Positions 43,303 through 45,729 of a stretch of 64,000 nt of DNA are shown one piece after another. The stretch's first letter is position 1; every line of letters starts with the position of its first letter. A program made the position numbers and the translations under genes. Under the pieces are notes generated by a model. The model saw only the letters and a list, made by a program, of their open reading frames with translations, made no database searches and was not told the DNA's origin. Origin of the DNA: Turicibacter sanguinis (GTDB lineage: Bacteria; Bacillota_I; Bacilli_A; MOL361; Turicibacteraceae); the NCBI RefSeq assembly GCF_013046825.1, contig NZ_CP053187.1, positions 1,415,501 through 1,479,500 on the forward strand, written 5' to 3'.

Positions 43303-43325
43303 AAAAAACCTACAATAGTAGGTTT
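43301..43325 (-). terminator. Terminator at the end of the RRNPP regulator gene
   Basis: AACCTAC and GTAGGTT arms are followed on the minus strand by a run of eight T. On the plus strand it also ends just behind the rhodanese gene. Confidence 0.78.
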
Positions 43326-44232
43326 AAGCAATATCAATTCCAAGTGCTTTATATTGTTCAATAACGCGCTCAATTTGATTACGTTTCCCTTGCATTTCAT
43401 ATAAAGTCACGAAAAATTTAGCACATGTTGTTGCTTCTTCCATTAAACCTTGATCCGCTAGAATGCTTCCCTTGCACATAAATAAATCGGCAACAACCGC
43501 AAAAGAACGTTCCTGTAAACAAGTTTTAATTCCTATTTCACAGACTTCAAGTGCTTTATCATAGTAATCTAGTCGATAATAAACATTGGCTAGGTTATAA
43601 TACATACGGCCTAGTAAATTAATATCGTATTTATGATAATATTTTAAATAGTTCTCAATGATTAAGGGTAATAATTGAGAAGCTTCAACTAATTTATTAT
43701 TGATAATATAGAATAGAATAATAATAGTATGAATAATATTTAATTCATTTAGGGTACGGAATCCCACACAAGCTTCTTCTAAATTTGTAAAGTTCATAGT
43801 TAGTTTTAACAAATCAATGTAGTATTCAATAGTTGGACTTTCATATTGGGGAAGATGAAATTTAGCAGCACCTTCATACCATCCTAAATATTGTTGAAAG
43901 TCTACTGGTGGATTAGGATGAAGAGAACGGTATTGATCGATTAATTCCATTAACGGAACAAAGTCTTTCTCGTAGAAATAATAATCTAATTGTTGCTTTA
44001 ATTCAATGACTTCCATCGGATTTTCGTGGTTGGCAAAAAGCAGAAAAGGTTCTAGGTTCTCATTTAATTTTTTTGATAATGCACTGAGTAAAAATCCCGT
44101 TGGTAAATTCTCATTTTGCTCAATTCGAATAAGCTGGCGCTTTGTACAAATACCATCAGCTAACTTTTCTTGACTCAATTGTTTTTTTAATCTTAACTCT
44201 TTCAATACATTTCCGAAATAAATTTCGTTCAT
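43324..44232 (-). CDS. RRNPP-type peptide-sensing regulator (PlcR/Rgg/ComR-like)
   Basis: A cytoplasmic transcription factor expected to bind a re-imported signalling peptide. The N-terminal XRE helix-turn-helix (about residues 7-60) contains LRLKKQLSQEKLADGICTKR. Residues about 75-300 are helical, with TPR-like repeats; the clearest is MYYNLANVYYRLDYYDKALE near 208, followed by GSILADQGLMEEATTCAKFF. The length of 302 residues matches PlcR, Rgg and ComR. The start follows TAGGAGG. It is divergent from a 43-codon exported peptide gene ending SIELPWWL, with a 22-bp palindrome between. It is probably an activator of that gene and of itself or other targets. Which subfamily it belongs to cannot be settled by eye. 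Confidence 0.85.
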   Translation of the reverse strand: MNEIYFGNVLKELRLKKQLSQEKLADGICTKRQLIRIEQNENLPTGFLLSALSKKLNENLEPFLLFANHENPMEVIELKQQLDYYFYEKDFVPLMELIDQYRSLHPNPPVDFQQYLGWYEGAAKFHLPQYESPTIEYYIDLLKLTMNFTNLEEACVGFRTLNELNIIHTIIILFYIINNKLVEASQLLPLIIENYLKYYHKYDINLLGRMYYNLANVYYRLDYYDKALEVCEIGIKTCLQERSFAVVADLFMCKGSILADQGLMEEATTCAKFFVTLYEMQGKRNQIERVIEQYKALGIDIA

Positions 44233-44299
44233 GAGCGTCCTCCTAACCCCCAGTATTTATTATTCTTATAATAAATAAACATCATGTGCTAAAAAGTAG

Positions 44300-44321
44300 A
44301 AAGTGAAAAAATAGTCACTTT
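44300..44321. promoter_or_regulatory. Inverted repeat operator candidate between regulator and peptide gene
   Basis: AAAGTGA, 8 bp, TCACTTT (44300-44306 and 44315-44321). It touches the likely -35 element of the peptide gene and lies 68 bp upstream of the regulator start. The placement suits an activator bound at -35/-45. Confidence 0.55.
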
Positions 44322-44347
44322 ACGTCTTATTTAATTTATTATATCAT
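44319..44347 (+). promoter_or_regulatory. Promoter candidate for the signalling peptide gene
   Basis: TTTACG and TATCAT are spaced 17 bp, about 35 bp before the ATG at 44383. The -35 is imperfect, as expected for an activated promoter. Confidence 0.45.
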
Positions 44348-44382
44348 GAAAATAGCAAAAGTTGAGAGGAGAGACAAAGACA

Positions 44383-44514
44383 ATGAAAAAAAATTTAAAA
44401 CAATTAGTTGTTGCATTTGTATTAGGATTAGTATTAGTTCAAGGAGTTACTACAGTACAAGGTAGTCAACAACCTTCAACTCGTGCATCAATCGAACTTC
44501 CTTGGTGGTTATAA
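44383..44514 (+). CDS. Small exported signalling-peptide precursor (PapR/ComS-like), 43 residues
   Basis: A gene of 43 codons. The start ATG 44383 follows GAGAGGAGAG. The product has a basic N-terminus (MKKNLK), a hydrophobic core (about residues 8-22) and a likely Sec cleavage site near VQG-S (about 27). A short hydrophilic stretch then leads to the C-terminal SIELPWWL. This layout of signal peptide plus short tail is that of PapR (tail ADLPFEF in Bacillus cereus), and the WW pair recalls ComS/XIP peptides. It is divergent from an RRNPP regulator and has its own terminator. The mature signal is probably the last five to eight residues; export, processing and re-import through an oligopeptide permease are inferred. 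Confidence 0.8.
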   Translation: MKKNLKQLVVAFVLGLVLVQGVTTVQGSQQPSTRASIELPWWL

Positions 44515-44556
44515 TCAATAATTAAAAATTAAATTGGGGATATGAGATAGAGGGGA

Positions 44557-44588
44557 AAAGATGTGAATCATGATTCACATCTTTTTTT
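44557..44588 (+). terminator. Intrinsic terminator after the peptide gene
   Basis: AAAGATGTGAAT and ATTCACATCTTT with a CATG loop are followed by T7. It shows that the tiny gene is a separate transcription unit. Confidence 0.95.
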
Positions 44589-44737
44589 TATATTTAATTA
44601 AAAAATATAAACTCTTTAGAGGAATAGAATAGGTTAAAAATCAATAATAATACCCCAAATTTGTGTGATTTACATGACCAAAAATCCTTCCGTTTAATAT
44701 ATTATAGTGTAGCTCGAATTTGAAGGGGGGGATAGAA

Positions 44738-44998
44738 ATGACTATTAAACGTTCTTATTACCCTCAAGATACGGATAATCCAGTTAAATTATTTGAGCCA
44801 ACGACGCAAACATTTACATTTGATAAACGAGATTTTAAAGAATTTTGTTCATTGGATAATATTTCTGTTATCGTCACAAACGTTGAAAATCACCATTATG
44901 AACATGAATACATTTATGAATATATAGACGTAAAAGAGTTACATTGTTATCATCATGGAAAGCGAGATGGTAATAGTTATAATTTGAATGACGAGTAG
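44738..44998 (+). CDS. His/Tyr-rich small protein, possible spore-coat protein
   Basis: A protein of 86 residues with no signal or membrane segment. Its C-terminal half (VENHHYEHEYIYEYIDVKEL then HCYHHGKRDG) closely matches the C-terminal part of the next gene product, so the two are paralogues. His/Tyr-rich small proteins of this look occur among spore coat proteins (CotD-like); this assignment is a guess. The start is ATG 44738 after GGGGGG; the earlier TTG at 44720 precedes the ribosome site. The gap to the next gene is 50 bp with no terminator, so the two are probably cotranscribed. Confidence 0.6.
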   Translation: MTIKRSYYPQDTDNPVKLFEPTTQTFTFDKRDFKEFCSLDNISVIVTNVENHHYEHEYIYEYIDVKELHCYHHGKRDGNSYNLNDE

Positions 44999-45048: not shown

Positions 45049-45729
45049 ATGAAACAATATCCACGTTGTCAGGCTAAACACCAACAAGAAAGTAAACCAT
45101 CTTTGTTTGATGAAGAAAAATTTTTCTCAGATGAAAAATTATTTGGGAGAGATGAATTAGAAAGAACATCTAACGCTAAATGGTATCCTGCGGATGTTAA
45201 AGGTGGTAAACATAATCTTTGGGACGACAATGCCGAAACTATTGAGTCACACCATTTTTGGGAAGGGGAAGAAGATAAAGCAGAACCTTTTGGGCCAGGT
45301 AGGGATGAAGAAATGGAGTTAGAACATCTTTGGGAAAATGAAAGTCAATGTAGTGAAGAAGATCAAAGTGCTGTAACAGATTCTCTTTGGGAAGGTCAAG
45401 AGGATGAAGAACATGAAATGTTGAATGAAGAGAAAGGATGTGAAGGTAAAAAACATCCGGAACCTTGTCATCATCATGAAGATTGCAAAGTCATTCGAGA
45501 AAAACCTGTTTATTGTAAAGAAGAAAAAAATTATTATCATAAAGTAAAACATATTATTCCTGTTATTTGTAAAAAAGTCGAAAACCATCACTATAATCAT
45601 GAATATATTATCAAAAAAGAAGTTATCAAAAAAGAACATCATTATGATCATGGAAAACGTGATGAAGATTGGTGTAAAGTTGCCGGATGCTGCAACAATC
45701 ATAAAGATGATTGCGGTTGCGAAGAATAA
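45049..45729 (+). CDS. Repeat-containing acidic/His-Cys-rich protein, possible spore-coat protein
   Basis: A protein of 226 residues in two halves. The N-terminal half is strongly acidic and repeats an [LF][FW]-acidic motif: LFDEEK (19), FFSDEK (25), LFGRDE (31), LWDDNAE (57), FWEGEED (70), LWENE (94) and LWEGQED (113). The C-terminal half is rich in His, Lys and Cys. It contains VENHHYNHEYIIKKEVIKKE, then HHYDHGKRD, shared with the preceding small protein, and ends in a Cys cluster (CCNNHKDDCGCEE). This composition suits a cross-linked or metal-binding structural protein such as a spore coat component; I cannot name a family. The start follows AAAGGAGAT. Confidence 0.6.
   Translation: MKQYPRCQAKHQQESKPSLFDEEKFFSDEKLFGRDELERTSNAKWYPADVKGGKHNLWDDNAETIESHHFWEGEEDKAEPFGPGRDEEMELEHLWENESQCSEEDQSAVTDSLWEGQEDEEHEMLNEEKGCEGKKHPEPCHHHEDCKVIREKPVYCKEEKNYYHKVKHIIPVICKKVENHHYNHEYIIKKEVIKKEHHYDHGKRDEDWCKVAGCCNNHKDDCGCEE

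Follow-up and report, generated by a model that had tools for sequence, protein, structure and literature searches.

A PlcR-like regulator gene opposite a small secreted-peptide gene in Turicibacter sanguinis: a candidate autoinducing RRNPP cassette

Does the short gene that lies opposite an HTH-TPR regulator in Turicibacter sanguinis encode the signal to which that regulator responds? The two genes lie within a 64-kb stretch of DNA, hereafter the window, of a 3.0-Mb single-contig genome (G000:C1:1415501-1479500), and had been predicted to form a peptide quorum-sensing cassette. The regulator of 302 residues is encoded on the minus strand (43324-44232) and the gene of 43 codons divergently from it (44383-44514, plus strand), with the two start codons 150 nt apart; inspection confirmed both reading frames, the ribosome-binding site, the signal peptide, the C-terminal sequence SIELPWWL and the strong terminator that this original prediction had described. 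We consider it highly probable that the cassette is a self-contained, autoinducing RRNPP peptide-receptor switch that works in the manner of TprA/PhrA or PlcR/PapR.

The regulator contains an HTH_3 domain at residues 10-61 and an RNPP_C/TPR domain at residues 88-269, with Pfam scores of 34.0 bits (cut-off 23) and 47.7 bits (cut-off 26.5), respectively, and thus has the DNA-binding domain of an RRNPP transcription factor as well as the peptide-binding domain of the family. In a phmmer search, PlcR was the top PDB sequence match, with an E value of 2.7e-5 over residues 6-287. An AlphaFold2 model with 33 homologues as input had a pLDDT of 89.7, and its first-ranking Foldseek match was the PlcR-PapR7-DNA complex 3u3w (E 1.1e-9, 19% identity), with other PlcR chains, ComR (1e-6) and Rgg2 (3e-5) at further ranks. 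Judged by sequence and predicted fold, the protein is an RRNPP transcription factor with PlcR as its nearest relative, at an identity far below subfamily level: structural alignments give 19-20%, whereas members of the PlcR subfamily are 30-80% identical to PlcR (PMC9765709). It occupies a long branch in the receptor tree, where its position is uncertain. By inspection, the gene has the ribosome-binding site AGGAGGA (44238-44244, minus strand), and at its 3' end stands a terminator-like stem (43306-43325, minus strand) that it has in common with the upstream rhodanese-like gene.

The peptide gene, delimited by ORF anatomy and a filter scan, extends from an ATG at 44383 to a TAA at 44514 and has the ribosome-binding site AGGAG (44367-44371) 11 nt 5' of the ATG; an alternative 50-aa version with a TTG start, proposed by the ORF caller, has no better support. 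The precursor of 43 aa, MKKNLKQLVVAFVLGLVLVQGVTTVQGSQQPSTRASIELPWWL, carries three Lys within residues 1-10 and an 11-residue hydrophobic segment with a mean hydropathy of 3.33. From hydropathy and Lys content, a Sec signal peptide, MKKNLKQLVVAFVLGLVLVQGVTTVQG, is predicted at 44383-44463, for which cleavage by signal peptidase at V-Q-G/S, a site found by inspection, is plausible. This would leave a tail of 16 residues, SQQPSTRASIELPWWL (44464-44511), which is predicted to be exported and ends in SIELPWWL. The proposal that the mature signal lies in the C-terminal residues gains support here: following PapR and PhrA practice, and given a [DE][ILVM]P motif, it probably consists of the last seven or eight residues (44488-44511). 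The gene ends in a rho-independent terminator with a 17-pair stem and a T-run (44552-44589, plus strand; fold z = -5.2).

Within the 64-kb window, 44383-44514 is the sole ORF to pass a small-ORF filter that asks for an ATG, 30-60 codons, a ribosome site, a basic start and a strongly hydrophobic segment, and no ORF passed it when the local stretch was shuffled 4000 times or the intergenic DNA of the window 100 times. Because the filter was set after the ORF had been seen, this outcome is supportive, not decisive. The adjacent secreted precursor typical of RRNPP systems is thus represented by a 43-aa ORF with a basic start, a hydrophobic core and a ribosome site. Together with RNPP_C, HTH_3 and the PlcR-like fold, this signal-like precursor bears out the earlier identification of an RRNPP receptor beside a secreted-peptide gene. 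The cassette also satisfies the strict layout of RRNPP_Detector, in which a TPR receptor of 250-500 aa adjoins a secreted precursor of 10-100 aa, and in this resembles the many candidate clusters predicted with that tool (PMC10075063).

Between the two genes lies a 22-bp inverted repeat, AAAGTGA-N8-TCACTTT (44300-44321), which we propose as the operator and which differs from the PlcR box. It is the single exact copy in the 3.0-Mb genome, and copies with one mismatch number zero; since there is no second site of either kind, the palindrome speaks for autoregulation at this locus and against a wide regulon. Sites with two mismatches, some of them terminator-like hairpins, exceed those of a reversed-pattern control by no more than a factor of about two, so a genome-wide regulon was discarded. 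The palindrome is directly upstream of the predicted peptide promoter, which comprises a weak -35-like TTTACG at 44319 and a -10 of TATCAT or TATTAT; the latter is included in a block, TTATTTAATTTATTATATCAT (44327-44347, plus strand), that shares 20 of its 21 bases with its counterpart at L009, a divergent pair in the congener G004. This identity was equalled by none of 1000 shuffled pairs and by none of 423 window tiles. At L009 and at L022, the locus of the best homologue outside the genus, the palindromes lie 30-35 nt 5' of the predicted -10, and averaged over unrelated pairs the palindrome position gives a weak peak near 30 nt 5' of the -10, weak since AT-rich DNA leaves the position of the -10 ambiguous. 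An AT-rich inverted repeat by the regulator start (44254-44277; p 0.01 versus shuffles) may form part of the regulator's own control region. The peptide-gene terminator holds GTGA-N8-TCAC at 44563-44578, which matches the operator core at 44303-44318; a second operator was dismissed here, as a third copy in the window, at 1600-1615, makes chance the probable explanation.

In the switch that we favor, the 43-aa precursor would leave the cell through Sec, with signal peptidase cutting it near VQG/S, and extracellular trimming of the tail would then yield a C-terminal peptide of seven or eight residues, about IELPWWL. This peptide would re-enter the cell through an oligopeptide permease (Opp); the genome holds five SBP_bac_5 genes, which encode permease-type binding proteins. 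Inside the cell, it would dock on the regulator, at the concave face of the TPR domain; the regulator itself would be bound to the AAAGTGA-N8-TCACTTT palindrome directly 5' of the peptide promoter. Once loaded with peptide, the regulator would either activate this promoter, as PlcR does, or cease to repress it, in the manner of TprA; in both cases promoter activity would rise and a positive feedback loop would result. Secretion, processing, import, binding, the direction of control and targets beyond the peptide gene are the parts of this explanation that we infer.

Among the streptococcal systems, some Rgg/SHP pairs are divergent and some ComS tails contain WW, while SHPs are exported by PptAB. 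The window regulator has the same superfamily fold as ComR and Rgg but matches PlcR better in both sequence and fold, and the 43-aa precursor with its Sec-type signal contrasts with the shorter SHP and ComS peptides. Of the proposed mixture of PapR, ComS and SHP features, the PapR-like tail is supported, whereas the mixture as proposed is not; the regulator is nearest to PlcR by both measures. PlcR/PapR of the Bacillus cereus group provides the best sequence and fold match, and IELPWWL, like ADLPFEF of PapR7, fits the pattern x-[DE]-L-P-aromatic-x-hydrophobic. The gene order is different: the PapR gene lies downstream on the same strand, as the peptide is encoded immediately downstream for PlcR, NprR, Rap and AimR of Bacillales (PMC9765709), whereas the peptide gene in the window is divergent.

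A precedent for the divergent layout exists in Streptococcus pneumoniae, where the gene for the PlcR-family regulator TprA2 lies on the opposite strand to phrA2; TprA2 represses, and the active C-terminal heptapeptide of PhrA2, VDLGLAD, relieves this repression (PMC5436883). The window resembles TprA/PhrA and TprA2/PhrA2 in having a PlcR-like HTH-TPR regulator opposite a small secreted-peptide gene, and it would share with TprA/PhrA a C-terminal heptapeptide and autoinduction, both of which we propose by analogy. The divergence, which had been read as SHP-like, is thus real, but it is a layout already known for TprA2/PhrA2, a PlcR-family pair that the original prediction had not named (PMC5436883). 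The likeness has limits: the lineage differs, IELPWWL is dissimilar to VDLGLAD, and no ABC transporter or lantibiotic genes adjoin the window cassette. A RiPP-type cluster such as accompanies TprA2/PhrA2 is found alongside the congener pair.

The congener pair is formed by the L009 regulator of G004 and, opposite it, a secreted ORF of 44 aa, MIKKISILLVLISIINTGLYFYSFTNNDSFNAISAEEWPGHNWY, with the palindrome TGGTCA-GAA-TGACCA between them. At L083:3163-8813 (G004:C1:2605000-2622000), after a divergent RRNPP/44-aa pair come two identical 18-aa ORFs in tandem, MKLKEVVRSQEHTCFMFC, and then genes for a ThiF-family protein of 787 aa and for an ABC transporter. From its gene content, this locus is likely a RiPP cluster and suggests RRNPP control. 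The same genome holds a near-identical second L009 regulator with an adjoining ABC transporter (L010:1309-2443 / L084:6798-9770); its peptide ORF is truncated past the hydrophobic segment, and it is possibly an eavesdropper or a decaying copy. In the genome G005, an RRNPP-like regulator is convergent with a secreted, proline-rich ORF of 61 aa (L008:233-2445), and two nearby ORFs of 45 and 66 aa have double-glycine-type leaders.

These comparisons bear on the direction of control, for which a repressor switch like TprA/PhrA and an activator switch like PlcR/PapR seem to us evenly matched. The divergent layout and RiPP neighborhood of the congener pair agree with TprA2/PhrA2 (PMC5436883), and the palindrome lies directly against the weak -35 (TTTACG, 44319), as would suit a repressor. 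The nearest fold, however, is that of DNA- and peptide-bound PlcR, an activator, and a palindrome directly 5' of a poor -35 would suit an activator as well.

They also bear on the identity of the small ORF, which might encode a secreted effector (a mini-bacteriocin, a type I toxin-like membrane peptide or a RiPP precursor) that is under the regulator's local control and is not its signal. We judge this improbable. The hydrophobic nature of the 43-aa product and its Trp-rich end would suit such a role, as would the position of a congener RRNPP cassette near genes for a ThiF-family protein and an ABC transporter, which likely form a RiPP cluster. In that congener, however, the would-be RiPP precursors are encoded by 18-aa ORFs of their own next to the divergent secreted one; in the window precursor, only 16 residues are left beyond the predicted cleavage site, and no modification, immunity or export gene adjoins the peptide gene in the window. 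The same layout is also kept in homologous pairs that have no biosynthetic neighbors. It is more improbable still that the regulator responds to some other ligand, or to a peptide from another locus, and that the small ORF arose by chance or is the remnant of a decayed gene. In favor of this reading, some RRNPP receptors have no adjacent peptide, a regulator conserved in the genus beside a MATE transporter (L004-L007) showed no divergent secreted ORF in the same scan, and the near-identical L010 receptor of G004 has a truncated one. Against it, the window ORF has a ribosome site, a signal peptide, a terminator, a palindrome and a promoter that the congener pair shares; it is the one ORF in the 64 kb to pass the filter, and it belongs to a divergent pairing that recurs in homologues.

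The autoinducing pair itself has a narrow distribution. Orthologues of the regulator or the peptide were found in none of seven relatives of the family, and cassette orthologues neither in genome contigs, by one window-specific motif scan, nor in viral contigs. All four other congeners keep the rhodanese-like gene and the downstream pair of small Cys/His-rich genes and lack the cassette; as the whole cassette is missing from them, these congeners speak neither for conservation nor for loss of the tail. On these sequence comparisons, the cassette is confined to T. sanguinis among the genomes compared. Plasmid and phage matches reach only 23-26%, and a mobile or phage origin was rejected, as there was no phage-like match. 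The downstream pair (44735-44998 and 45049-45729), which is present genus-wide beside the rhodanese-like gene, encodes small His/Cys-rich proteins that have no Pfam match and look like spore-coat proteins. Its promoter-like block, TTAATATATTATA...TGTA.GCTC, is recognizable in two cassette-free congeners, and because these next genes keep a promoter-like block of their own in cassette-free species, the 64-kb window shows no target gene other than the peptide gene.

A search of related genomes for divergent RRNPP genes with small ORFs, as had been suggested, showed that the pairing recurs at L009, at L022 and in an Izimaplasma-type clade; the cassette itself is absent in the congeners. The L022 regulator, which at 28% identity ranks first among homologues beyond the genus, lies opposite a 35-aa secreted ORF that ends in GGIFPWI, with the intergenic palindrome GACTAATTAGTC. 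A profile search found related receptors in 63 of 395 genomes of the class; at 25 further loci, the fixed-filter scan found a divergent secreted small ORF in 14 cases and a downstream one in four. In one tree clade of 16 rows, a divergent secreted small ORF is present at 13 loci. Its named members are Candidatus Izimaplasma HR2, a second Izimaplasma MAG and other Mycoplasmatota/Tenericutes MAGs, and four of these five have a divergent ORF of 43-45 aa; in the fifth (L075), the contig ends too near the regulator for such an ORF to be judged. For the L058 receptor of this clade, a second AlphaFold2 model again had PlcR as its first PDB match. Seven orthologous loci of the clade have a common, operator-like intergenic element, GGGTCATATATGAAC, which in L061 forms the perfect palindrome GGTCATATATGACC, while their peptide tails vary. 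The tail motif [DE][ILVM]P, to which ADLPFEF of PapR7 and ELP in the window tail conform, is enriched among the 18 candidate peptides (6 of 17 when the window is left aside, p 0.0008), in a test chosen post hoc with the tails already seen. As far as distant homologues can speak for the window, their comparison supports the pairing of regulator and peptide.

RRNPP one-component peptide signaling with a TprA/PhrA layout is of a known kind, and the divergent arrangement is not new, since TprA/PhrA has it (PMC5436883). What appears to be new is this particular cassette, together with the spread of pairs of this design into other lineages of the class: most of the mapping of RRNPP signaling concerns Bacillales and Lactobacillales (PMC9765709), and we found no paper in the open-licence literature that joins Turicibacter with RRNPP or Izimaplasma with quorum sensing. 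A complete receptor-peptide pair in another order-level lineage would extend peptide communication beyond the bacteria covered in the open-licence papers searched, and the congener pair beside a RiPP-type cluster reuses its promoter block. More tentatively, and with slightly less than even confidence, we propose that the window cassette is part of a so far undescribed PlcR-fold RRNPP branch, one in which the peptide gene is typically divergent and the tail often carries [DE]-[ILV]-P. This branch would extend over several families of the class outside Bacillales and Lactobacillales, with the wall-less Candidatus Izimaplasma among its members, and its operator and tail would shift by lineage. 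The Candidatus Izimaplasma pairs would offer an independent set in which to follow the joint divergence of operator, receptor and signal.

In Candidatus Izimaplasma and related MAGs, at L074:2279-3409, L076:2276-3409, L077:2286-3409 and L078:378-1504, a PlcR-fold regulator and a divergent secreted ORF of 43-45 aa share an operator-like element, and two of these Izimaplasma-type loci have a second related regulator upstream (L074:911-1810 and L077:933-1832). On a plasmid of Cytobacillus oceanisediminis (L042:1992-3066), an RRNPP-like regulator is followed on the same strand by a secreted 54-aa ORF that is annotated as hypothetical; it contains GYPTQH twice and resembles a multi-copy pheromone precursor.
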